IMG/VR virus record: IMGVR_UViG_3300044998_001099 | Coordinates: 1-29,354 of that record | DNA from: a virus | Direction: 5' to 3' (one strand) | DNA length: 29,354 nt | Shown here: positions 1,188 to 26,035 of the stretch, piece after piece | Layout of the letters: each line of letters begins with the position of its first letter | Position numbering within the stretch: position 1 is the first letter of the stretch | Made by a program: the position numbers and the translations under genes | Notes under the pieces: model-generated | Database searches by the model: none | Told to the model about the DNA's origin: nothing | Seen by the model: only the letters and a program-made list of their open reading frames with translations

Positions 1188-2284
1188 TCAGCGAAGCCGC
1201 CAGACATCGGCAAGTCTGCCGACCAGCACGTCTTGCCGCTTCTGCAGAGTGGCAGGCGTCCAAGCGGGCTCGGACAAGACCTGATTCGTCAGTGCGAAGT
1301 TGGTGACTCCAGCCTGGCTGCTGAAGTATTTGGACTTCTTGTCGGCGAAATCCAGGTTGCCGGCCTGAGAGTTCTTCCGTCGCGTGAGCAGCACGAGGTT
1401 CGCCAGGCGATGCACCCATGACTCGCGTTGCATCTGGTCGGGGAAATCCTGCGCCCAGCGGCTACCTGGCAGGACCGTCTGCGGCAGCACGTGTTCCACG
1501 GTGATGATGGGGCTGTCATACACGGCGCCGCCAGCCGCCAGCATCGCATCGAGCCGCAGAAGGAGGGGCAAGCGAATACGCGTCTCCGTGTAGATTTCTC
1601 CCTCGATCTTACGGAGCACTTCCGCCTTCTCAGACTGATGCAGCTGAAGCGGGGAGCCGCCCACAGACAGATCGGCGCCTGACTGGATCGCCTGCAAGAG
1701 TGCGCCGTAGCGCTGGATACGCTCGTTGATGTCTGCTCGCCTCAGGAACAGTACGTAGGCGAGACGCTCGAGATCCTTGACGAATTCGAGGAGGAAAGCT
1801 GGGTCCTGTTTCCGCTTGGCGAAGACCTCGATCGCCGGCGGATGCCAGTCTGAGTTGTCGAGCCGCGCGAGGTGCCCGAGCGTCTGGTTGATCTCGCCGG
1901 CATGCTGGAAACTCACGAAGCGCTTGTCGACGATCGCCTCGAAGGCCTCACCATAGGGGATCAGTTCTCCGTCTATGAAGCTCACGGGATTCTTGCAGGT
2001 CGGAACGAATTCCCGGAACTCCGCAATCAACGTTCCCCTCATCTTCTGCTTGCGGTGGATCGTCCGGATGTGGCCAAAGAGCTCGGCGAAACTGTTTCGG
2101 CCGAGTTCCACCTCCAGCTCCTCCCACTTCTCTGTGTATTCGTCGCGCCGCGCCAGCGGCACCGCACCGATGATCTCCGCCTTAAGGATATCCGCCGGCG
2201 AGAGATCGAGGCCACGAGAATTCAGCACGGAGAAGATACGGAAGGCGGAATCCTGATCGGATGCCGCGACGACGACAAGGTAGC
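1188..2284 (-). pseudogene. DUF262/DUF1524 (GmrSD-like) restriction protein, C-terminal part, 3' of the IS insertion
   Basis: This is the downstream portion of the gene whose start is at 4066. Starting directly at the IS target, it reads CYLVVVAASDQDSAFRIF and then LNSRGLDLSPADI, the conserved end of the DUF262 domain. Near the C-terminus is VEHVLPQTVL followed by LANLVLLTRRKNSQAGN, the HNH-type DUF1524 signature (H of EHxLPQ and a downstream N). Known members such as GmrSD are NTP-dependent type IV restriction enzymes that cut modified DNA. No ribosome site precedes this fragment after the insertion. It could only be expressed from an internal start such as the GTG at 2226-2228, so I regard it as inactive. 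Confidence 0.85.
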
Positions 2285-2288
2285 ATCG
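2285..2288. repeat. 4-bp target-site duplication (left copy, ATCG)
   Basis: ATCG lies directly outside the left terminal repeat and is repeated at 3487-3490 outside the right one. A 4-bp duplication is typical of IS407/IS511-type IS3-family elements. Joining the flanks with one copy restores the DUF262 reading frame, which supports this boundary. Confidence 0.85.
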
Positions 2289-2345
2289 TGACCTTGCCCC
2301 CTTGGATGTCCCCGGTCTGAGCTAGGGTCCGTCGCAGGGAGACGG

Positions 2346-2615
2346 ATGATGAAGCGATCGAGGTTTACGCAGGAGCAGATTATTGGGGTGCTGAAGGAGC
2401 ATCAGGCCGGTGCGCCGGCGCCGGATCTGTGTCGCAAGCATGGGATCAGCGAGGCGACGTTCTACGCTTGGCGGTCGAAGTACGGGGGCATGGAGGTTTC
2501 CGATGCCCGCAAGCTGAAGAGCCTCGAGGAGGAGAACGCGCGGCTGAAGAAGCTGCTGGCGGAGTCCATGCTCGATGTCTCGACGCTGCGGGAGATGTTG
2601 GCAAAAAACTTCTGA
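2346..2615 (+). CDS. IS3-family transposase OrfA (HTH, leucine zipper)
   Basis: This 89-residue protein opens with [17 protein letters not shown] and [20 protein letters not shown], the helix-turn-helix of IS3 OrfA (HTH_8/transposase 8 family) that binds the element's ends. A coiled-coil stretch from about residue 58 ([17 protein letters not shown]) probably mediates dimerisation. AGGGAGACGG lies just before the ATG. The last codons GCA AAA AAC TTC TGA contain a frameshift signal leading into orfB. Confidence 0.93.
2603..2609 (+). promoter_or_regulatory. Programmed -1 frameshift slippery heptamer (A AAA AAC)
   Basis: AAAAAAC sits in phase as A-AAA-AAC at the end of orfA, six bases before its stop. 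Slipping back one base enters the orfB frame and yields an OrfAB fusion of about 371 residues. This is the established expression mechanism of IS3-family transposases; slippage itself is inferred. Confidence 0.8.
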
Positions 2616-3460
2616 CGCCCGGCTCGCGGAGAAGCGCCGTGACCTGGGCGATCAATGAGAAGGACTACTCGCAGCGGCGTGCCTGCCAGCTCGTCGGCCT
2701 GGCACCGAAGACGTATCGCTACGTCTCTCGGCGCCCCGACGATGGCGAGGTTCGCGTTCGGCTGCGGGCGCTGGCGAATGAGCGCCGACGGTTCGGCTAT
2801 CGGCGCCTGCACATTCTGCTGGCGCGTGAGGGGCACCGGCTGAACCACAAGAAGCTGTTCCGTCTGTACCGGGCGGAACGCCTTGGGGTACGGCGGCGTG
2901 GCGGTCGCAAGCGCGCGCTCGGCACGCGGGCGCCGATGGCACTGCCGCAGGCGATGAACGCACGCTGGTCGCTGGACTTCGTCTCCGACGCGCTGGCCTG
3001 CGGGCGGCGGTTCCGCGTGCTGGCGGTGGTGGACGACTTCACCCGCGAGTGCCTGGCGCTGGTGGCGGACACTTCGCTATCGGGGCTGCGCGTCGGGCGT
3101 GAGCTCGATCGGATCGTGGCGCTGCGCGGCCGCCCGGCGCTGATCGTGAGTGATAACGGCACCGAGCTGACCTCGCATGCGATGCTGCGTTGGCAGCAGG
3201 AGCGTTGCGTCGGCTGGCACTACATCGCGCCGGGTAAGCCGCAGCAGAACGGGTTCGTGGAGAGTTTCAACGGGCGGTTCCGCGACGAGTGCCTCAACGA
3301 GCACCTGTTCGGTAGCCTGCCCGCGGCGCGCCGGATCATCGAAGCATGGAGGAGCGACTACAACACGACCCGCCCACACACGAGCCTGAACGGGCTCACC
3401 CCAACAGCCTTTGCAACCCGCCCCGCATCGGGGCAAATGGAGAACAGGCTCTGCTCATAA
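2609..3460 (+). CDS. IS3-family transposase OrfB (DDE integrase domain), made as OrfAB by frameshift
   Basis: This frame carries the rve integrase core. After an N-terminal HTH_21-like region (YGYRRLH type, here [14 protein letters not shown]) come the catalytic residues: D in [11 protein letters not shown] in [10 protein letters not shown] and E in NGFVESFNG. Exactly 35 residues separate the second D from the E, the D(35)E spacing of the family. OrfB has no clear start of its own. The open frame extends back to 2429 inside orfA, as expected for production by -1 frameshifting at 2603-2609. It looks full length and active. Confidence 0.92.
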
Positions 3461-3486
3461 ACGAGGGCATTTCGGGGGCAGGGTCA

Positions 3487-4066
3487 ATCGCTGCACGAGA
3501 TAGACGGCGAATGCCTGCCGCTGCAGGTCCGTGAGTTGCGTCAGCCTGTTACGGAACAGAATCGCATTCTCGACGATCCGCGCCTGCGAGTCATGCAATC
3601 CGCGGGGGTTGGGGAGGTTCTTTGTGGCACTGAGCCTTTGTATGGTGTTTTCGAAGAAATCGGCATCGCGCTCGCGAAGCCGCAGGCGGTAGCGGTCCCT
3701 GGTCCCGAGAAGAGGATTTCCGGCCTGGCAGATGAAACCGTGGGCGTGAGTGGCGAAAGCGGGGCTCAGGTCGCGCAGCACGGCAAGCAAAATGCTGAGG
3801 GTGGTCAGGCGCTGCTGCCCATCCACCACGTCGGCCTCGGGCTTCTGCGGGTCCTTGATGAGCACGATGCTGCCCAGGAAGTATGGGGCCTGATCCTGTG
3901 CCTGCGCCTCGTGCCCCCAGGCGCTCATCACGTCAGCAAGCAGTTCGCTGGCTTGCTCGGTGGTCCAGGCATAGGGCCGCTGATAGGACGGGATGCTGAA
4001 CAGATAATCATCACTGAGAATTTTGAGGATCGGCTTCTCGGTCGCCTCGATCGTGTGGCTCGTCAT
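3487..4066 (-). pseudogene. DUF262/DUF1524 (GmrSD-like) restriction protein, N-terminal part, truncated by the IS
   Basis: The start MTSHTIEATEKPILKIL is followed by IPSYQRPYAW and VVDGQQRLTTLSILL. The DGQQR motif is the signature of the DUF262 (ParB/sulfiredoxin-like) nucleotide-handling domain of GmrSD-type restriction systems. After VYLVQR the IS begins, and the broken frame adds about nine foreign residues before a stop at 3455. The fragment is about 193 residues of an original 558. Its ATG overlaps the stop of an upstream small ORF (ATGA), so the two were an operon. The GmrSD role is known for the family; the exact substrate here is unknown. Confidence 0.88.
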
Positions 4067-4430: not shown

Positions 4431-4602
4431 TCGCTGACGGAACTGGTTCTTGCAAACGTGATGTTGCGTCCGCGTTGCACGGGTCGCTTGTTGTTCGGTG
4501 CAAGCTGGATCACGCCAATGAGCCGGCTACACCGGTTACCAGAGGGCCTACGCAGCGTGAAGGCCCGCCAAAGGATCTGGACTAAACCACGCATTTCACA
4601 TA
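4431..4602. other. Intergenic region upstream of the R-M methyltransferase
   Basis: No coding signal was seen on either strand. GC content is lower than in the phage part. A weak promoter candidate is CTGGAC (4577-4582) with TATGAC (4601-4606), 18 bp apart, directly in front of and overlapping the palindrome at 4603. This is inference only. Confidence 0.3.
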
Positions 4603-4638
4603 TGACCTAGGTCACGAAACAACTCGTGACATGGGTCA
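4603..4638. promoter_or_regulatory. Composite palindromic operator candidate at the methyltransferase start
   Basis: A perfect 12-bp palindrome TGACCTAGGTCA (4603-4614) is followed, 24 bp centre to centre, by the near copy TGACATGGGTCA (4627-4638). The inner halves also form an inverted repeat, GTCACGA and TCGTGAC, around AACAAC. The two outer 15-bp arms match at 13 of 15 positions. Both sites contain GAC-N4-GTC. The right copy ends on the A of the ATG at 4638. The position fits autoregulation, either by a protein or by the methyltransferase itself; this is inference. Confidence 0.6.
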
Positions 4639-5843
4639 TGGCAAAGCGACATCAGTTTGGCGTGGACTTCCTCTCCCGCATCCGACGTATGCAGGAACTC
4701 ATCATGGCGCGCAGTGGCCTAGATGAGTTTTATGAGATCATCCGACTCATCCTCGCTAAGTACTATGCAGAACTGTCGGGCCTGCAAGGCCTCCCCGATC
4801 GAGACGAGTGCGACCGCCTCCTGAAAACACATGCGTCCGCGGTCACCGAGATTCTAGATGGTGTTCTGGTGATGCAATCGCCATCCGATGTTTTCCCGGA
4901 TCTTCAGAATATATTCGGCACCTTTAGCATTATTCAGCAGGATTTTACAGCACTCGATCAGGCCTTCGAGCATCTGACATCGCGGTCCTACAAGTCCGAT
5001 AAGGGCCAGTATTTCACTCCGCGACATGTTGTCGATATGTGCGTGGAGGCTGTCGATCCGAAGCCAGGCGAGACAGTCTGCGATCCCGCCTGCGGAAGTG
5101 GCGCCTTCCTAAAGTCTGCGCACGCTTATGGCATCAATAAGTACGGCAAGGCAGCGTCTTTGGATGGCTTCGACTTCTCTCACCGAGCCTGCCAAGTGGC
5201 AAAGACCGTCTCTCTCGTCGGGGCGAAGGGTGACATCAAGATCCACCAGGTAGACAGCCTACGCTTGCCCACTCGTACGCTATTCAGCGATCCAGGAACG
5301 ACCATCGAAAGCGTTATGGGCGCCGAATTCGAGGGTTTCGACGTTATCTTTACCAACCCTCCGTTCGCCGGAGACGTAGGCGCGGAGGCCTTCGCGAGAG
5401 ACTACGCGCTCGCATCGATCTATGGGCGGCGCTTGGAGCGCGATGTTTTGTTTCTGGAGCGGTGCATCCGGTTACTCAAGCATGGCGGGCGCCTCGCAAT
5501 CGTGCTCCCCGACAATAAGGTCTCGGGTCGCGCCTTCCGAGACCTTAGGCTGTGGCTGGGTCGGCATGCGCTCATCAAGAGCGTCGTTAGCCTCCATCGT
5601 TACACGTTCCTGCCTTACACAGGGCAGAAGGCGGCTGTGATCTTCGCCGTGAAGCAGCCGCCTTCGATGGACGCGTATAGCTCCGAAGTCCTTTTCTTCC
5701 GCTCCGACAAGCCGGGGAAAACGTCGAACGGATCCTTCGTTTATCGGCCGGGCGGCGACCCGAATGCGGCCCCCTACGAGGCACTCGACCACGATCTGGA
5801 CGAAGCGGCCCCAGTTATTCGGAGAGCTCTATGCGCTGTATAA
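4638..5843 (+). CDS. HsdM-like N6-adenine DNA methyltransferase of a type IIH-like R-M system
   Basis: The protein is about 401 residues from ATG 4638; GTG 4626 adds four residues and would place the start inside the operator. After an N-terminal helical domain comes SYKSDKGQYFTPRHVV, typical of type I M subunits (N6_Mtase family). Motif I is DPACGSGAFL (around residue 150) and the catalytic motif IV is NPPF (around 241). It methylates adenine using S-adenosylmethionine and needs a specificity subunit, supplied by the next gene, which overlaps by 13 bp. There is no ribosome site in front of the ATG, so translation could be leaderless or start further in. GC is lower than in the phage genes, consistent with transfer. 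Confidence 0.85.
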   Translation: MAKRHQFGVDFLSRIRRMQELIMARSGLDEFYEIIRLILAKYYAELSGLQGLPDRDECDRLLKTHASAVTEILDGVLVMQSPSDVFPDLQNIFGTFSIIQQDFTALDQAFEHLTSRSYKSDKGQYFTPRHVVDMCVEAVDPKPGETVCDPACGSGAFLKSAHAYGINKYGKAASLDGFDFSHRACQVAKTVSLVGAKGDIKIHQVDSLRLPTRTLFSDPGTTIESVMGAEFEGFDVIFTNPPFAGDVGAEAFARDYALASIYGRRLERDVLFLERCIRLLKHGGRLAIVLPDNKVSGRAFRDLRLWLGRHALIKSVVSLHRYTFLPYTGQKAAVIFAVKQPPSMDAYSSEVLFFRSDKPGKTSNGSFVYRPGGDPNAAPYEALDHDLDEAAPVIRRALCAV

Positions 5844-6511
5844 GCCGTCAGTTCCGCGATACCGGCGCCGACTACAACCTGTCCCCGGAGCAATGGCTAT
5901 CATCTGAGACGGCGAGCCGCCTCGCGGGCGCGACACCGCTACGGGACATTGTGCAGCCGGTTGGCCAAGTCACGACCCCGCCGGCAGGCGCTCGCTTCGT
6001 GTTGGACACGAACAATGCTCGTGATGGGCTTCTCGATTTGCCGGTGCTTGGCAATCCAGGCACCGGCCGCGTCAGCGCAAAGAAGACCGCATTAGAAGGC
6101 GACGTTATCGTGTCGCGTCTGCGTCCATACCTAAGGCAGGTCGCGATGATCCCGCCCGGCGCGTCGGAGCTCCTCGAGCAAAGGCAATTCTACTGCTCGA
6201 CGGAGTTCTTCGTCCTCAGGCGGAAGGATGGCGGCAACGCAGCCGGGCTCGTGGCTTGGCTCCTCAGCGAGCCAATTCAGAGCATGATGTCAGATGCAGC
6301 GACAGGTGGGCACCACCCCCGCATCAACGTCGACCTGTTGCTAAGCGCTCCTGTCGAGGACCGGTACATCGATCCGAAATTCTCAGCTTCACTTAGCAGC
6401 GTCCTCGCCCGGCACCTCCAATGCCAACGCGAGCTTTTGGTCCTCCTTCGACATGGCCCAGGGTCGGGGGTACGAGCCCTTCGCAGCAAACGCACAACCG
6501 CTGTCACGTAA
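5831..6511 (+). CDS. Half-length HsdS-like specificity subunit (single target-recognition domain)
   Basis: This 226-residue protein carries HsdS landmarks: LRDIVQ, GDVIVSRLRPYLRQVAMIP (around 95-113), STEFFVLR and GGHHPRINVDLLLSAPV, then a short C-terminal helix (LARHLQCQRELLVLL). Ordinary type I S subunits have about 400 residues and two recognition domains; this has one. In AhdI-type (type IIH) enzymes such half subunits dimerise as M2S2 and read a symmetric split sequence. Its start lies within the last codons of the methyltransferase gene, so the two are coupled. Its last 120 or so bases overlap the convergent nuclease gene. Confidence 0.75.
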   Translation: MRCISRQFRDTGADYNLSPEQWLSSETASRLAGATPLRDIVQPVGQVTTPPAGARFVLDTNNARDGLLDLPVLGNPGTGRVSAKKTALEGDVIVSRLRPYLRQVAMIPPGASELLEQRQFYCSTEFFVLRRKDGGNAAGLVAWLLSEPIQSMMSDAATGGHHPRINVDLLLSAPVEDRYIDPKFSASLSSVLARHLQCQRELLVLLRHGPGSGVRALRSKRTTAVT

Positions 6512-7240
6512 GAACTCCTGCAAGGGCTGGTAGGGGATGCGCTTCATCTTTCCAAAGTTCGTATCTTCGTTGAAGTGCCAGCCCTCGCTCTCTTTGCGAC
6601 CGTAGCGCTCGATGTTCAGTACACCTCCGGCGTTCACGATCTTCTTGCCGGTACGGCTTAGGATCGTCGGCGTTTCGAATTTGCCGAACCATCTGCCGCC
6701 TGCTTCCGCCATGCGGTGGTCGCGAGCACGGATGCACTCAATCACCGGGAAGACGCCGATGGACTTGATCGTGGGAGAGAGCAGCGTCGCGTCTTCTGGT
6801 AATGGTGCCAGTTGATAGACCAGGAGCAACAGTGCATCTCGATCAGGAATGACGTTCTTCACCGTAACCTTCTGCGTGAGCCTCGCCGAAGGCTCACGAG
6901 GCGTCGGAGGCTTCTTCAATTTGACCGCAGGGTTGTCCGTGAAGACACCCTTAAGCTCTATCCGATAACCGGCTGCATGTTCGAAGTCCGGATAGCCTTC
7001 GCGCTCTCCCAGCAGACCAGCCGCTTTCGTCAAGCCGATGCCGAGTTCAAGTGCGATCCGAGGCAGCATCAGGTCGGTGAGCGTGCCTACTATGGTTCCG
7101 ACCTGTGACGGCTCAATCTGCATCGCCATATCCGCTGGCAAGCGGAGGTAATGCACGGGCGTGCCACAAAGAGGCCGCAGCGCCTCGATGAGCCGTTCCA
7201 ACGGTTGCTGTTCTGTAATCGGACCCCACGCTGGCAACAC
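6389..7240 (-). CDS. PD-(D/E)XK restriction endonuclease partnered with the HsdM/half-HsdS pair
   Basis: This 283-residue protein starts at GTG 7240 behind GAGGGAGG (7247-7254). A likely active site is P84-D85 with E95-L-K97 in YPDFEHAAGYRIELKG, the PD-(D/E)XK nuclease pattern. It has no methyltransferase or helicase domain, so it would act as a separate type II enzyme. It runs convergently into the specificity gene and overlaps it by 123 bp. Family-level identity is not recognised; the role is inferred from the motif and from sitting beside M and S genes. Alternatively it could be an Mrr-like or other accessory nuclease. Confidence 0.65.
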   Translation of the reverse strand: MLPAWGPITEQQPLERLIEALRPLCGTPVHYLRLPADMAMQIEPSQVGTIVGTLTDLMLPRIALELGIGLTKAAGLLGEREGYPDFEHAAGYRIELKGVFTDNPAVKLKKPPTPREPSARLTQKVTVKNVIPDRDALLLLVYQLAPLPEDATLLSPTIKSIGVFPVIECIRARDHRMAEAGGRWFGKFETPTILSRTGKKIVNAGGVLNIERYGRKESEGWHFNEDTNFGKMKRIPYQPLQEFLRDSGCAFAAKGSYPRPWAMSKEDQKLALALEVPGEDAAK

Positions 7241-7254
7241 GATTCGCCTCCCTC

Positions 7255-7670: not shown

Positions 7671-8099
7671 TCATCCGGGCGGGAGGGAAACGGCGCCAGG
7701 GGCCGGATAGGCCCGGGGAAGGCCCATGCGCTGTACGCCCCAGGCCACCTCACTGAGTTCGAGGAGATCATTCAGACCAAGGGCCTGGCTACTTCGCCCA
7801 TCCAGCACCGCCTCCACGACCTCCGGCGCCAGCAGCGTCAGGTTGAGCAGCCGGCCGACGTAGTTGCGATCGACGTCTTCAGCCTTGGCGAGTTCGCGAA
7901 TCGAGCTGTAACGCCCCTCCTCCAGCAGTCGCCACCAGCGGAAGGCGCGCGCCAGCGCCTTGACCAACACCGGGTCGCCGCGCGTTTCCTCCATCCCATC
8001 GCCGCCCACCTGCAGCGGCACCCCATCCGGCCCGATGATCTTCTTCCGCCCGCCGCGGCGGCGAACGGTCATCGGCACCACCACCGTCACGCTCGTCAT
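7671..8099 (-). CDS. KorB/ParB-HTH-like small protein of the recombinase cassette
   Basis: This 142-residue protein contains ALARAFRWWRLLEEGRYSSIRELAKAEDVDRNYVGRLLNLTLLAPEVVEAVLDGR split over residues of the middle third. The IRELAKAEDVDRNYVGRLL part is a helix-turn-helix of the KorB/ParB type. Its ATG overlaps the stop of the serine recombinase by 4 bp (ATGA). It is last in the cassette. Proteins of this kind regularly follow large serine recombinases in alphaproteobacterial phages, and a role in DNA binding during integration or excision is plausible but not established. Confidence 0.7.
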   Translation of the reverse strand: MTSVTVVVPMTVRRRGGRKKIIGPDGVPLQVGGDGMEETRGDPVLVKALARAFRWWRLLEEGRYSSIRELAKAEDVDRNYVGRLLNLTLLAPEVVEAVLDGRSSQALGLNDLLELSEVAWGVQRMGLPRAYPAPGAVSLPPG

Positions 8100-9424
8100 G
8101 CCGCCAGCGCCTCCCGCTTCACGCCCATGTCGCGCGCGAGGCCGACGAGGCCTTCCAGGTTCAGCCTGATCTGCGCACCAGCATCAGTGATGTCGACGCG
8201 CTCGACGAGCAACCGCACAATGCGCTCCTGCTCACCGGGGAACAGCTCGGCCCACAGCGGATCAAGCCGCGTGAGAGCGTCGCGCACATCGTCCTCGGTC
8301 AGATCCGGCACCTCCTCCCGCGCCGCGCGCCAGGTGCCGACGACGATCTCCGGCTCACGGAGGATCGTGCGCACCTGCGCCATCACGATCCCCTCGATCT
8401 CGCCTGCTGGCAGGCGCATGTGCGCCGCGTCGTTGGCCCCGCCCTGCAGCACGGTCTGGCTCACGTAGTAGCGGTAGAGCTTCCCCTTCTTCCGCGTATG
8501 GCTCGGCGACATCGCCCGGCCATCCGGCCCGAACAGCAGACCGCGCAGCAGCGCTGGGTTCTGGTTGCGTGACTGCTGGCCGCGCGTGCGCGGGCTCTGG
8601 GTCAGGATCGCGTGCACCCGATCCCACAGCGCGCGGGGGACGATCGCCTGGTGCTCGCCTGGGTACGAGCGCCCTTTGTGCACCGCCTCACCGAGATACA
8701 CGCGGTTGCCCAGCAGCTTGTACAGCGCGCCCTTGTCGAAGGGACGGCCGGTCTTCGTCAGCAGCCCCTCCTCCCGCAGGATCGGCAGAAGCCGCTTGCC
8801 GGAGCCGATCTCGGCGAAGCCCTCGAACACGCGCCGCACAGTGGCCGCGGCTGGCTCGTCCACCAGCAGCTTGCGGTTCTCGACCCGGTAGCCAAGCGGC
8901 ACCGGGCCGCCCATCCACATCCCCCGCGCGCGCGATGCAGCGATCTTGTCGCGGACGCGCTCGCCGATCACCTCCCGCTCGAACTGCGCGAACGAGAGCA
9001 AGATGTTCAACGTCAGCCGCCCCATGCTGGTCGTCGTGTTGAACGACTGCGTCACCGAGACGAACGTCACCTCGTGCGCGTCGAAGGTCTGCACGAGCTT
9101 GGCGAAGTCCATCAGGGAGCGGCTGAGCCGGTCGATCTTATAGACGACCACGACGTCGACCAGCCCGCCCTCGATGTCGGCGAGAAGGCGCTTCAGCGCG
9201 GGGCGCTCGAGCGTGCCGCCGGAGACGCCGCCGTCGTCGTAGCGGTCCTGCACGAGCACCCAGCCTTCCGACCGCTGCGAGGCGATGTAGGCCTCGCAGG
9301 CCTCGCGCTGTGCATCGAGCGAGTTGAATTCCTTCTCCAACCCCTCGTCGGTGCTCTTGCGGGTGTAGACGGCGCAGCGGAGCTTCCGCAGTTTCGCCGG
9401 CGTAGCGGTGTCGCGGCGGCTCAT
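8096..9424 (-). CDS. Large serine recombinase (phage integrase)
   Basis: The 442-residue protein starts with the resolvase domain. VYTRKSTDEG holds the catalytic serine (about residue 24), followed by YDDGGVSGGTLERPALKRLL, VYKIDRLSRS and FNTTTSMGRLTLNILLSFAQFEREVIGERVRDK, each a standard serine-recombinase block. The Recombinase domain follows (GYRVENRKLLVDEPAAATVRRVF). The usual cysteine zinc ribbon in the C-terminal half is missing its cysteines. It would integrate or excise this prophage. It overlaps its neighbours by 4 bp on both sides (upstream DUF2924, downstream KorB-like), giving one translationally coupled unit. Confidence 0.93.
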   Translation of the reverse strand: MSRRDTATPAKLRKLRCAVYTRKSTDEGLEKEFNSLDAQREACEAYIASQRSEGWVLVQDRYDDGGVSGGTLERPALKRLLADIEGGLVDVVVVYKIDRLSRSLMDFAKLVQTFDAHEVTFVSVTQSFNTTTSMGRLTLNILLSFAQFEREVIGERVRDKIAASRARGMWMGGPVPLGYRVENRKLLVDEPAAATVRRVFEGFAEIGSGKRLLPILREEGLLTKTGRPFDKGALYKLLGNRVYLGEAVHKGRSYPGEHQAIVPRALWDRVHAILTQSPRTRGQQSRNQNPALLRGLLFGPDGRAMSPSHTRKKGKLYRYYVSQTVLQGGANDAAHMRLPAGEIEGIVMAQVRTILREPEIVVGTWRAAREEVPDLTEDDVRDALTRLDPLWAELFPGEQERIVRLLVERVDITDAGAQIRLNLEGLVGLARDMGVKREALAA

Positions 9425-15963: not shown

Positions 15964-16893
15964 ATGGCGGTGCTGCCCGCCCCCAACAGCCCGACCGTCG
16001 ACGCCATCTATGCCGCCTACGAAGCAGCGGCGGACGATGGCTACCGCGACCATCTCGGCGCCTCCCTGATCGGCGCCGCGTGCGAGCGGGCGATCTGGTT
16101 CAGCTTCCGCTGGGCGACGCGGGCGCGCCATGCGGGGCGGCTGCTGCGGCTGTTCGAGACGGGCCAGCTCGCGGAGGCGCGGTTCGTCACCGACCTGCGG
16201 CGCATCGGCGTCACCGTGCTCGACGTCGATCCTGCGACGGGCCGACAGTGGACGCTGCGCGATGCGTCGGGCCACTTCGGCGGCAGCATGGATGCGGTGG
16301 CGCTCGGGCTGATCGAGGCGCCGAAGACCTGGCACGTCTGCGAGTTCAAGACGCACAACTCGAAGTCCTTCGCGGCGCTGAAGGCCGAGGGCGTCGCCGG
16401 CTCGAAGCCGCTGCACTGGGCGCAGATGCAGGCCTACATGCGGCTCGCCGGGCTGGAGCGTGCCTTATACCTCGCCGTCTGCAAGGACACCGACGAGATC
16501 TACCAGGAGCGCCTCCACCACGACGCGGAGGCCGGGCAGAGGATCCTCGCCAAGGCAGCGCGGATCATCTCAACCCCACGCCCACCCACCCGCATCAGCG
16601 ATGATCCGGCATGGTGGCAATGCCGTCTGTGCGATCACCACGCCGTCTGCCACGCAGCCGCGGTGCCGGAGCGGCATTGCCGCTCCTGCCTGCACGCCAC
16701 GCCGGTCCAGGATGGCGCCTGGCACTGCGCGCGGCACCAGCAGCTCCTCCAGAGGCAGCAGCAGCGGTCCGGCTGCGGCGCGCATCTCTTCGTCCCCGAC
16801 CTCATCGCCGCCCAGCAGATCGATGCCGGCGCGGATTGGGTCAGCTACCGGCTCCCTGACGGCAGCACCTGGCACGACGGGGTGGCGGCATGA
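15964..16893 (+). CDS. PD-(D/E)XK nuclease, RecB/Cas4-type, with cysteine cluster
   Basis: From ATG 15964 the protein has 309 residues; the open frame reaches far upstream but that part is antisense-like sequence overlapping two genes. Catalytic residues are D110 in FGGSMDAVALG and E127-F-K129 in WHVCEFKTHNSKSF, then Q154/Y158 in HWAQMQAYM, the RecB-type QxxxY motif. A cysteine-rich stretch (C220, C223, C229, C239, C242, C255) follows, suggesting zinc or an iron-sulfur cluster as in Cas4/AddB. It probably resects DNA ends for the annealing pair upstream. It overlaps the helicase gene by 4 bp. Confidence 0.8.
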   Translation: MAVLPAPNSPTVDAIYAAYEAAADDGYRDHLGASLIGAACERAIWFSFRWATRARHAGRLLRLFETGQLAEARFVTDLRRIGVTVLDVDPATGRQWTLRDASGHFGGSMDAVALGLIEAPKTWHVCEFKTHNSKSFAALKAEGVAGSKPLHWAQMQAYMRLAGLERALYLAVCKDTDEIYQERLHHDAEAGQRILAKAARIISTPRPPTRISDDPAWWQCRLCDHHAVCHAAAVPERHCRSCLHATPVQDGAWHCARHQQLLQRQQQRSGCGAHLFVPDLIAAQQIDAGADWVSYRLPDGSTWHDGVAA

Positions 16894-18473
16894 GCCTCTC
16901 GCTTCGCCCGTACCAGCGCGCGGCCATCGACGCGCTCTACGACTACTTCGGCAGCAAAACCGGCAATCCCCTCGTCGTGCTTCCGACCGGGACCGGCAAG
17001 AGCCTCTGCATCGCCGGCTTCATCCACGAGGCGATCGCGGCTTATGCCGACACCCGCGTCCTCGTCCTCACGCACCAGCGGGAACTTATCCAACAGGACT
17101 TCCAGGCCCTTCTGCGCGCGTGGCCCGAGGCGCCGGCCGGAATCTACTCGGCCGGCCTCTCCCGCCGCGACATCCACGCGCAGATCCTGTTCGCCGGCAT
17201 TCAGTCCATCCACCGTCACGCGTACAAGGTGCAGCGTTGCGATCTCGTGCTGATCGACGAGGCGCATCTGCTCGGGCGCGGCGACAGCGGCATGTACCGG
17301 TCCTTCCTCGCGCAGCTGAACGAGATCAATGCCGGACTGCTGAAGGTCGTCGGCTTCACCGCCACGCCCTACCGGCTCGATAGCGGGTTGCTGCACGAGG
17401 GCAAGGACAGCCTCTTCACCGACATCGCCTACGAAGTGCCCGTCCTCGACATGATCCAGCAGGGCTACCTCTGCCCCGTGGTGCCGAAGCAAACGGAGAC
17501 GCAGCTCGACGTGGCAGGCGTCGGCAGCCGCGGCGGGGAGTTCATCGCCAAGGATCTCGAGGCGGCGGTCGACCGCGACGAGGTGACGCGCGCGGCCGTC
17601 GACGAGATCGTGCAGCACGGCGAGGGTCGCGGCTCATGGCTGGTGTTCTGCTCGGGCGTCGCGCATGCGCGGCACGTGCGCGACGCCATCCGTGAGCACG
17701 GCATCTCCTGCGAGACGGTCACGGGCGACACGCCAGCGCCGGAGCGCGACGGCATCTTGGCTGCCTTCAAGGCCGGGCGGCTGCGCTGCGTCACCAACGC
17801 CAACGTGCTCACCACCGGCTTCGACGCGCCGGGCACCGACTTGATCGCGCTGCTGCGCCCCACCAAGAGCGTCGGGCTCTACGTGCAGATGGTCGGTCGC
17901 GGCACCCGCCTCGCCGAGGGCAAAGACGACTGCCTGGTCCTGGACTTCGCTGGCAACACCGCGCGGCACGGCCCCATCGACATGGTCGACGGACGCAAGA
18001 AGGAACCAGCCGGCGACGGCGAGGCGCCGATCAAGGTCTGCCCCGAGTGCCAGACCATCAACCACGCGAGCGTCCGGCGCTGCATCGCGTGCGATCATGA
18101 GTTCCCACCACCGGTGGTAAAGGTAGCGCCGCAGGCGGCGGCGAACGCGCTGCTCTCGACGCAGATCCAGGCTGCCTGGTGCGACGTCACCAGCGTCAGC
18201 TACGCCCGCCACGAGAAGCCGGGCAAGCCGGCGTCGCTGCGCGTGACCTACGAGTGCGGCCTCACCCGGCACAGCGAGTGGGTCTGCTTCGAGCACACCG
18301 GCTATCCGCGCCAGAAAGCGGTCGGATGGTGGCTGCGTCGCGCACCTGAGCGTCCGGTCCCTTTCACGGTGGAAGAGGCGCTGCAGCACCGCGACGCGCT
18401 GCGCCAGCCGATCGCGATTCAGGTGCGCCCCACGGGGCAGTACACCGAGATCACCGCCACGAGGTTCGTGTGA
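16890..18473 (+). CDS. SF2 DEAD/DEAH-box helicase with C-terminal zinc ribbon
   Basis: The 527-residue protein carries motif I LPTGTGKS (31-38), motif II DEAH (123-126), motif III GFTATP, and in the second RecA lobe TTGFDAPGTDLI and the motif VI QMVGRGTRLAEGK. The family is the phage/RecQ-UvsW-like type I restriction helicase group. A zinc ribbon VCPECQTINHASVRRCIACDHEF follows the motor. The C-terminal 110 residues resemble no domain I know. It would unwind DNA or remodel forks in phage replication. Confidence 0.88.
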   Translation: MSLSLRPYQRAAIDALYDYFGSKTGNPLVVLPTGTGKSLCIAGFIHEAIAAYADTRVLVLTHQRELIQQDFQALLRAWPEAPAGIYSAGLSRRDIHAQILFAGIQSIHRHAYKVQRCDLVLIDEAHLLGRGDSGMYRSFLAQLNEINAGLLKVVGFTATPYRLDSGLLHEGKDSLFTDIAYEVPVLDMIQQGYLCPVVPKQTETQLDVAGVGSRGGEFIAKDLEAAVDRDEVTRAAVDEIVQHGEGRGSWLVFCSGVAHARHVRDAIREHGISCETVTGDTPAPERDGILAAFKAGRLRCVTNANVLTTGFDAPGTDLIALLRPTKSVGLYVQMVGRGTRLAEGKDDCLVLDFAGNTARHGPIDMVDGRKKEPAGDGEAPIKVCPECQTINHASVRRCIACDHEFPPPVVKVAPQAAANALLSTQIQAAWCDVTSVSYARHEKPGKPASLRVTYECGLTRHSEWVCFEHTGYPRQKAVGWWLRRAPERPVPFTVEEALQHRDALRQPIAIQVRPTGQYTEITATRFV

Positions 18474-23042: not shown

Positions 23043-23337
23043 TTGTCCACCCACCGGTTGCGAGGGCGCAGAAACCGGATTGCGGCCGCGGAACCGCAAG
23101 CGATAGACTCCCGTCACCGTCGAGACTTGGGCTTTGAGGCGACGGCACGGTGGCTCAGGAGCCACCCCGCAAGCGAAAGCGGACGCCTTCGCGTCGATCT
23201 CATGGTTCCTTCCCGGCCCTGGCGTATGCGGGGGGCGAACGCGCCGGACTTCGCTAGCGTCAGCCCCGTTCTCTAGGTTGCCAAGACGGCCAAGTTGCCG
23301 GCCGTTGCGCCTCCCCGTTCACCAGAAGCAGGTTGCG
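23043..23337. other. Divergent intergenic region between the TA operon and the ParB-methyltransferases
   Basis: No gene is supported. The methyltransferase frame is open upstream to 23134, but that part has no ParB similarity. A hairpin GTGGCTC-AG-GAGCCAC lies at 23150-23165. Promoters for both directions must lie here; no clear -35/-10 pair was recognised. Confidence 0.4.
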
Positions 23338-24798
23338 ATGCCCCAGGCCCCTTGGGCTGCGAGCACCGTCGAGGCGCGCGCGGTCACCTCGCTGCTGCCC
23401 TATGCCGGGAATGCGCGCACGCACGCGCCCGAGCAGGTGGCGCAGATCGCAGCCAGCATCCTCGAGTTCGGCTTCGTCGCGCCGGTGCTGGTGGACGAGC
23501 ATGGCGAGCTGATCGCCGGCCACGGTCGGCTGCTGGCGGCGAAGTCGCTGGGCCTCGAGACCGTCCCGACCATTGTCCGCGCCGGGCTGAGCGAAGCGCA
23601 GAAGGCAGCCTACCGCCTGGCGGACAACAGGATCGCGCTGAACGCGGGCTGGGACGAAGCGCTGCTTGCCGCCGAGGTCACGAAGCTGCAGGAGATGGGT
23701 GACGTCGATCTGGCACTGACCGGCTTCGGCGCGGACGAACTCGATCGCCTGCTCGCCGGGCTGGAAACCAGCCCTGGCAACGAGGCGGCATCCGCCGTTG
23801 CCAGCGGTCCTGAACCCGCGGCTGGCAACCAGCCTGATGCCAACGCCGAGCCGGCGGATGATCCCGCCGACGCATCAATCGAGCCGCCGCGGCGCGTCAT
23901 CACCCGAACGGGTGATCTCTGGCGCCTTGGCGACCATCGCCTCCTCTGCGGCGACAGCACCGATACGGCTTCCGTCGCCCGCATGATCGGCGACGACCGC
24001 GCGGCGCTGCTGTTCACATCCCCGCCGTACGGCAACCAGCGCGACTACACCACCGGCGACGTCTCGGATTGGGATGCGCTGATGCAGGGCGTGTTCGCAC
24101 ATCTCGGCGCGGCGCTGCGTCCCGATGCGCAGGTGCTGGTGAACCTCGGCCTGATCCACCGCGAGAGCGAGTGGCAGCCCTACTGGTCAGCGTGGGTCGA
24201 CTGGATGCGCGCCCGCGGCTGGCGGCGCTTCGGCCTCTATGCCTGGGACCAGGGGCCGGGGCTTCCCGGTGACTGGAACGGCCGCCTCGCCCCGGCTTTC
24301 GAGCTTGTCTTCCACTTCAACCGCGAGGCGCGGCAGGCGAACAAGATCGTGCCCTGCAAATGGGCCGGTACGCCGAACAAGGGCAGCGGCCTTCGCGCCG
24401 CCGATGGCGAGGTGAAGGCCTACACACACATCGGCCTCCCCGTGCAGGACATGCGCATCCCCGATGCGGTGCTCCGCATCACGCGGCACAAGGCACGTGG
24501 CATCGAGACCGAGCACCCGGCGGTGTTCCCCGTGGCGCTCCCCGAGTTCCTGATGCGGACCTACACCGACGAGAGCGATGTGGTGTTCGAGCCCTTCTCC
24601 GGGTCCGGCACGACGATCCTGGCAGGCCAGCGCACCGGCCGCCGGGTGGCCGCCATCGAGCTTGCGCCGGCCTATGTCGACCTCGCGATCGCACGGTGGC
24701 GCATGCTGCACCCCGATCTGCCTGTGACGCTCGACGGCGACGGGCGGGACTACGACGCCATCGCTGCGGTGCGCACGGAGATGGCCGATGCTGCCTGA
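23338..24798 (+). CDS. ParB-domain / DNA methyltransferase fusion (SPPY type)
   Basis: From ATG 23338 the protein has 486 residues. Residues 10-140 form a ParB/Spo0J-like domain (NARTHAPEQVAQIAASILEFGFVAPVLVD, GHGR at 61-64). After an acidic linker comes an amino-methyltransferase: CGDSTD, catalytic TSPPYGNQ (227-234) and motif I FEPFSGSGTT (417-426), in the order typical of beta-class enzymes. SPPY is found in N4-cytosine as well as some N6-adenine enzymes. Such fusions are frequent in phages and are thought to modify phage DNA against restriction. It overlaps the next, related gene by 11 bp. Confidence 0.87.
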   Translation: MPQAPWAASTVEARAVTSLLPYAGNARTHAPEQVAQIAASILEFGFVAPVLVDEHGELIAGHGRLLAAKSLGLETVPTIVRAGLSEAQKAAYRLADNRIALNAGWDEALLAAEVTKLQEMGDVDLALTGFGADELDRLLAGLETSPGNEAASAVASGPEPAAGNQPDANAEPADDPADASIEPPRRVITRTGDLWRLGDHRLLCGDSTDTASVARMIGDDRAALLFTSPPYGNQRDYTTGDVSDWDALMQGVFAHLGAALRPDAQVLVNLGLIHRESEWQPYWSAWVDWMRARGWRRFGLYAWDQGPGLPGDWNGRLAPAFELVFHFNREARQANKIVPCKWAGTPNKGSGLRAADGEVKAYTHIGLPVQDMRIPDAVLRITRHKARGIETEHPAVFPVALPEFLMRTYTDESDVVFEPFSGSGTTILAGQRTGRRVAAIELAPAYVDLAIARWRMLHPDLPVTLDGDGRDYDAIAAVRTEMADAA

Positions 24799-26035
24799 CC
24801 TGCAGCTCGAGATGATGCCGGTGGCGTCGCTGGCGCCCTACGTGGCGAATGCCCGGCAGCATCCGCCCGAGCAGGTGGCGCAGCTTGCCGCGTCGATCGG
24901 CGAGTTCGGCTTCAACGTGCCGGTGCTGGTCGATGATGCCGGCGTGCTGATCGCCGGCCACGGTCGCGTGCTGGCCGCGAAGGCGCTTGGGCTGGAGGAA
25001 GTGCCAGCCATCCGGCTCGGGCACCTGACGGAAGCACAGGCGCGCGCCTTCCGCCTCGCGGATAACCAGCTAGCGCTGACCTCGACCTGGGACGAGAGCC
25101 TGCTCGCCGCCGAGCTGCGCGCGCTGCGCACAGACGAGTTCGATCTCGGCCTGGTTGGCTTCGACAATGCGACGCTCGATCGGCTGCTGGCCGAGACGGC
25201 GACGGATGGGCCGGCGCCACCTAGCGGCGATCCTGACGCCCCGGCCCCCGAGCCACCCGCGGTGCCGCTCACGCGCCCTGGCGATCTCTGGTTGCTCGGG
25301 CCGCACCGCCTGCTCTGCGGCGACGCCACCAGCGCCGCCGATGTCGCGCGGCTGCTCGCGGGCACGACGCCGCACCTGATGGTCACAGACCCTCCCTATG
25401 GGGTGAACTACAATCCCGAGTGGCGCAACGAGGCCGGCGTCTCGGCGACGATGCGCACCGGCAAGGTGGCGAACGATGACCGCGCCGACTGGCGCGCCGC
25501 CTGGACGCTATTCCCCGGCGATGTGGCTTACATCTGGCACGCGGGCGTGCATGCGCGGACGGTGATCGAGAGCCTCGAGGCGGCAGGCTTCGCGGTGCGC
25601 AGCCAGATCGTCTGGGCGAAGTCCCGGTTCGTGCTCGGCCGCGGTGACTATCACTGGCAGCACGAGCCCTGCCTCTACGCCGTGCGTAAGGGTGCGACGG
25701 GTCACTGGCAGGGCGCGCGCGACCAGGCGACGCTCTGGCCGATCAGCACGGCCGGCGACGAGGACGCCGCCACCGTGCACGGAACGCAGAAGCCGGTGGA
25801 ATGCATGCGCCGGCCGATGCTGAACAACAGCGCGCCGGGCGATGCGATCTACGAGCCGTTCTGCGGCAGCGGCACGGCCATCATCGCGGCCGAGACCGTC
25901 GGGCGCGTCTGCCTCGCGATGGACGTCGATCCGGCTTATGTCGACGTGGCTGTGCAGCGGTGGCAGACGCTGACGGGCAGCGCTGCGATGCTCGCAGCGA
26001 GTGGTCGCACATTCGGCGAAATTGCACCCGCGTAG
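24788..26035 (+). CDS. ParB-domain / DNA methyltransferase fusion (DPPY type)
   Basis: The 415-residue protein is a paralogue of its upstream neighbour. The ParB-like part has NARQHPPEQVAQLAASIGEFGF and AGHGR (57-60). The methyltransferase part has VTDPPYGVNY (DPPY 201-204), HGTQKPVE (331-338) and EPFCGSGTA (356-364). DPPY indicates N6-adenine methylation. The two ParB parts are closely alike, while the catalytic parts differ, so together they could modify two kinds of site. It ends three bases before the convergent DUF429 gene. Confidence 0.87.
   Translation: MLPDLQLEMMPVASLAPYVANARQHPPEQVAQLAASIGEFGFNVPVLVDDAGVLIAGHGRVLAAKALGLEEVPAIRLGHLTEAQARAFRLADNQLALTSTWDESLLAAELRALRTDEFDLGLVGFDNATLDRLLAETATDGPAPPSGDPDAPAPEPPAVPLTRPGDLWLLGPHRLLCGDATSAADVARLLAGTTPHLMVTDPPYGVNYNPEWRNEAGVSATMRTGKVANDDRADWRAAWTLFPGDVAYIWHAGVHARTVIESLEAAGFAVRSQIVWAKSRFVLGRGDYHWQHEPCLYAVRKGATGHWQGARDQATLWPISTAGDEDAATVHGTQKPVECMRRPMLNNSAPGDAIYEPFCGSGTAIIAAETVGRVCLAMDVDPAYVDVAVQRWQTLTGSAAMLAASGRTFGEIAPA

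Follow-up and report, generated by a model that had tools for sequence, protein, structure and literature searches.

AhdI has an M2S2 composition and recognizes GACN5GTC (PMC2878638). The promoter of the AhdI M gene is reportedly repressed by methylation of sites that lie inside it (PMC5333194; PMC12707154). PshAI is listed as recognizing GACN4GTC and as comprising M and half-S subunits, two of each (PMC3874165, Table 3). The label Type IIH is said to be in little use today (PMC4081073).

Here we describe a restriction-modification (R-M) locus in the 29,354-base virus record IMGVR_UViG_3300044998_001099, the whole of which was analysed and is called the window below. The locus very probably adds a further system to the established AhdI/'Type 1 1/2' (Type IIH) kind.

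Gene content of the window

By its gene content the window reads as a prophage. Besides a serine integrase, it encodes a Cas4-domain exonuclease, an SF2 helicase, a primase, and a terminase small subunit. The M, S, and R genes (4638-7240; Table 1) are flanked by a broken GmrSD gene to the left and by the integrase to the right. The closest relative is locus L005 from an Acetobacteraceae MAG; its DNA similarity to the window spans the integrase and M, S, and R, and breaks off at position 4590 of the window, shortly before the M promoter sites, suggesting a prophage edge near this position. Across the locus the two sequences share 82% DNA identity, with 91% and 87% protein identity for R and S, respectively. 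The GmrSD/DUF262-type gene is interrupted by an IS3-family element. Two adjacent ParB-domain/DNA-methylase fusions, overlapping by 11 bp, were also identified in the phage part of the window.

Table 1. Positions of the R-M genes, predicted recognition sites, and other features in the window
Feature	Position	Strand	Description
GmrSD/DUF262-type gene	1188-4066	-	N-terminal part 3455-4066, C-terminal part 1188-2228
IS3-family element	~2346-3460		interrupts the GmrSD/DUF262-type gene
Site 1, GACCTAGGTC	4604-4613	.	GACN4GTC, predicted recognition site; -34 to -25 from the M start codon
Site 2, GACATGGGTC	4628-4637	.	GACN4GTC, predicted recognition site; directly before the M start codon
M	4638-5843	+	401 aa, gamma-class N6-adenine DNA methyltransferase, HsdM-like
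S	5831-6511	+	226 aa; start overlaps the M stop by 13 bp
S/R tail-to-tail coding overlap	6389-6511		123 bp, from ORF coordinates
R	6389-7240	-	283 aa, predicted stand-alone PD-(D/E)XK restriction endonuclease, facing S
Serine integrase	8096-9424	-	right of the R-M genes
SF2 helicase	16890-18473		match to a phage DNA helicase family
ParB-domain/DNA-methylase fusion	23134-24798		phage part
ParB-domain/DNA-methylase fusion	24788-26035		phage part

The M protein matches Pfam N6_Mtase (4.5e-28). Motif I (DPACGSG at 149) and motif IV (NPPF at 240) are both intact, the latter being the NPPY/F/W motif of a gamma-class N6-adenine M subunit, a Type IIH feature. The M reading frame is open from a GTG at 4626; from the alignment of 23 M proteins, the ATG at 4638 was picked as the more likely start.

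By sequence, S matches type I/II specificity models only, and these weakly (PADLOC, 1.5e-7). Its AlphaFold2 model (pLDDT 81.2) contains one TRD (about residues 34-175), followed by one long C-terminal helix (182-208). In its predicted fold, S corresponds to just one half of the S subunit of PacII (VIA-align, Z 13.8), and further half-matches were obtained with the type I enzyme 5ybb (Z 12.4) and with BsaXI (Z 11.8). Both the model and the alignment point to a separate, half-length S with a single TRD, which is another Type IIH feature, and the two-TRD HsdS of type I systems is absent. The segments SRLRPYL, STE, and HPR of the TRD are invariant and RLRPYLRQ is conserved among 19 aligned proteins. 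Conservation of the TRD across phyla is unusually high, suggesting that one specificity may be common to the family.

The R sequence has no match in Pfam, NCBIfam, PHROGs, or PDB sequences, and the viral Foldseek library gave no usable match. The AlphaFold2 model of R (pLDDT 89.6) has SwaI, HincII, NlaIV, and EcoRV as its nearest solved structures (Z 5-6.7); with Z below 8, the model supports assignment to the general PD-(D/E)XK nuclease class only. Among 26 aligned homologues, E43, P84-D85, and E95-L-K97 are invariant, together with many flanking residues, and E43, D85, E95, and K97 are candidate catalytic residues. The PADLOC REase_II model PDLC03583 matches 19 of the 23 R members weakly (best 2.2e-4); the PDLC03583 family was searched for in 143 genomes and in control genomes, and none was found. 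A separate Type II restriction endonuclease with intact active-site residues, in a window without HsdR, is likewise a Type IIH feature. Neither HsdR nor an HsdR remnant was found among the window ORFs or Pfam hits, and the SF2 helicase belongs to a phage helicase family.

These results bear out most of the preliminary description, which had proposed an AhdI-like (Type IIH) system from a type I-style methyltransferase, a half-length specificity protein, a stand-alone nuclease facing it, and the lack of a type I HsdR. The half-length S, the gamma-class M, the separate endonuclease, and the lack of HsdR all agree with this reading, as does the symmetric motif at the M promoter. The nuclease active site was retained when compared with homologues. 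That description had also left the nuclease unplaced and considered its class possibly new. R indeed falls outside the Pfam, NCBIfam, and PDB sequence families, but its predicted fold is an ordinary one of the EcoRV/HincII/SwaI type. The R/S overlap and the two GACN4GTC sites had not been part of it.

Relatives, gene order, and the controller gene

Homologues of R were found at 26 loci in a collection of 84,980 species genomes and, separately, in two viral contigs, and they also occur in Streptococcus suis phages with 49% identity. The R, M, and half-S genes co-occur in 23 non-redundant loci, which span many phyla and include two archaeal loci. The recurrence of the same trio in 23 loci goes beyond chance, and its occurrence across phyla argues for a real, mobile, and rare R-M system. 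Four class-wide samples of approximately 390 genomes each contained no additional family members, which also points to a rare family. A set of 72,556 plasmids contains no R. Those M hits on plasmids that were opened belong to other systems with larger methylases.

The 23 loci show two gene orders. In the order usual among relatives, S-M is transcribed divergently from an XRE-type C gene, and R comes after C. In the window and in L004-L007, R converges on M-S and the R and S coding sequences overlap, by 72-123 bp in L004-L007. In L008, M and S form a single 653-aa chain, and a 1:1 ratio of M to S fits this fusion.

Some R homologues were observed in other contexts. In a 51.7-kb viral contig (L031), neither M nor S was detected within 6 kb of an intact R homologue (5989-6792), which is possibly an orphan restriction enzyme or may have a much diverged partner. 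The R homologues of L025 (3601-4371) and L027 (5932-6702), with about 41% identity, are located on the same strand downstream of a different, shorter methylase, and no half-S was detected at these two loci. The nuclease family may thus pair with other methylases too. In L017 (Nitrososphaera), a C-like HTH match and R are contained in one 321-aa ORF (317-1282), possibly a C-R fusion.

A C gene was identified in 18 relatives. In a PDB search, the family C protein matches known R-M controllers, such as C.BclI and C.Esp1396I (3clc). No C-like ORF was found beside R in the window, L004, L005, or L006. In L007, which belongs to the same convergent branch, a C-like HTH ORF (5641-5895), belonging to a different subtype, is located directly upstream of R, resembling the reported AhdI layout. 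We regard the C-less state of the window and the loci closest to it as a modest variant.

GACN4GTC sites upstream of the methylase gene

All 832 bipartite palindromes of the 3+3 type with spacers of 0-12 were counted in the 150-bp regions that precede the 23 M genes. GACN4GTC ranks top, with 13 of the 23 loci. The runner-up motifs are AT-rich and occur in nine loci, and GAC with other spacers occurs in 0-2 loci. In dinucleotide-preserving shuffles, GACN4GTC occurred on average in 0.66 loci and at most in 4; across 300 shuffles, none of the 832 motifs was found in more than 10 loci. Random 150-bp windows from the same loci gave 0.67. According to the trees, the motif-bearing loci include six from Clostridia/Streptococcus and four from the window's branch, so the 13 loci represent about five lineages and not independent events. 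The N4 bases differ between loci, as for an unread spacer, and this variation argues against simple block inheritance.

As in L005 and L006, the two sites in the window are at -34 and -10 relative to the start codon, with a spacing of 24 bp. Site 1 is also present in L004, L005, and L006, with the N4 bases changed in two of these, and the position and spacing of site 2 are unchanged in L005 and L006. In six C-bearing loci (L002, L013, L016, L019, L024, and L030), the site runs exactly up to the -35 hexamer of the best-scoring promoter match, in which a 17-base spacer separates -35 from -10. The promoter scan gave no sigma-70 match upstream of M in the window. In the loci where R converges on M-S, the 200 bp preceding R contain no GACN4GTC. 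In the whole window, 10 copies of GACN4GTC were found versus 10.4 expected, indicating neither avoidance nor enrichment.

The motif could also be a regulatory operator only, bound by a host factor or, in relatives, by C, in an R-M system whose enzyme reads another sequence. The exact motif is missing upstream of M in 10 of the 23 loci, and the spacer in L018 is N3. Single half-sites in L011, L012, and L026, where the left GAC alone is retained ten bases before -35, and the GACN4GAC of L007 in the window's own branch are in favor of such an operator. However, the motif persists in the loci without a detectable C gene (the window and L004-L006) and is doubled in the window, L005, and L006, so the binder of the sites in these loci is not a C protein. 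The C-gene side of the intergenic region in relatives carries a different, TTC/GAA-type palindrome, and the occurrence of GACN4GTC in several phyla speaks against one host factor. Furthermore, the bases between the half-sites vary, and GAC halves are known from AhdI, PshAI, and DrdI (PMC3874165). We consider the operator-only explanation unlikely.

Given the parallels with AhdI and PshAI, these data are most simply read as a family that recognizes GACN4GTC and whose methylase limits itself through its own promoter. The recognition sequence predicted from these upstream regions is probably GACN4GTC. It had been suggested earlier that the specificity might be new; the predicted word is that of PshAI, and novelty is improbable in this respect. 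A literature search found no paper with GACN4GTC methylome data. Negative feedback of the methylase on its own promoter appears moderately probable.

Proposed working and comparison with known systems

The explanation that we consider likely as a whole combines an M2S2 methylase with R, recognition of GACN4GTC, and self-limitation of M. Two M and two half-S subunits would assemble into the M2S2 methylase, which would read the symmetric, interrupted sequence GAC-N4-GTC and methylate the adenine of each GAC. R, presumably a homodimer with an EcoRV/HincII-like fold, would cut unmethylated GAC-N4-GTC in incoming DNA. The methylase would also act on the sites at 4604 and 4628 in its own promoter, and M expression would fall as the methylase accumulates.

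Alternatively, the copy in the window might be inactive cargo that is decaying while hitchhiking on the prophage, as could be read from the adjacent GmrSD-type gene broken by the IS3 element and from the missing C gene. Against this, the three genes are open and keep their invariant residues, and L005, at 82% DNA identity, retains all three genes and the two promoter sites; inactive cargo is thus quite improbable. A degraded type I system, with HsdM, a truncated HsdS, and an unrelated nuclease adjacent by chance, can practically be dismissed: a relation of M and S to type I subunits and the presence of IS elements nearby speak for it, but the same M, half-S, and R are conserved jointly in 23 loci with two gene orders, all catalytic motifs are intact, and the window ORFs and Pfam hits include no HsdR remnant.

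For the preferred reading, an intact AhdI-like R-M system, a further proposal concerns the C-less branch and is tentative. This branch might have lost its controller gene, and its expression timing might be provided only by the two target sites at the M promoter and start codon, with R, inverted and overlapping S, having no site control of its own; the R family would be an undescribed one.

A rare yet very widespread R-M family, present in many bacterial phyla, archaea, and phages, thereby gains a concrete and testable candidate recognition sequence, which was read off promoters and not methylomes. The relatives with and without C provide natural material on how such systems spare a new host. 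Apart from the predicted site and the contrast in C, this is an ordinary defence system of known architecture.

Compared with AhdI, the locus has the same separate gamma-class M, half-length S, and separate restriction endonuclease, with R convergent with M-S (PMC5333194; PMC2878638; PMC4081073). It differs from AhdI in the size of M (532 aa in M.AhdI versus 401 aa here), in the spacer (N5 in AhdI versus the predicted N4 here), and in the C gene, which was not detected in the window, L004, L005, or L006. The likeness to PshAI, compared by its published listing, comprises the recognition sequence predicted here and the M2/half-S2 composition that we infer. R shares its predicted PD-(D/E)XK fold with EcoRV, HincII, and SwaI (Z 5-6.7), with no detectable sequence similarity to them. 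The type I R-M systems EcoKI and EcoR124I, as well as PacII, share the M core and the TRD fold with the locus, whereas S here has one TRD and not two, there is no HsdR motor, and the nuclease is a separate Type II enzyme.
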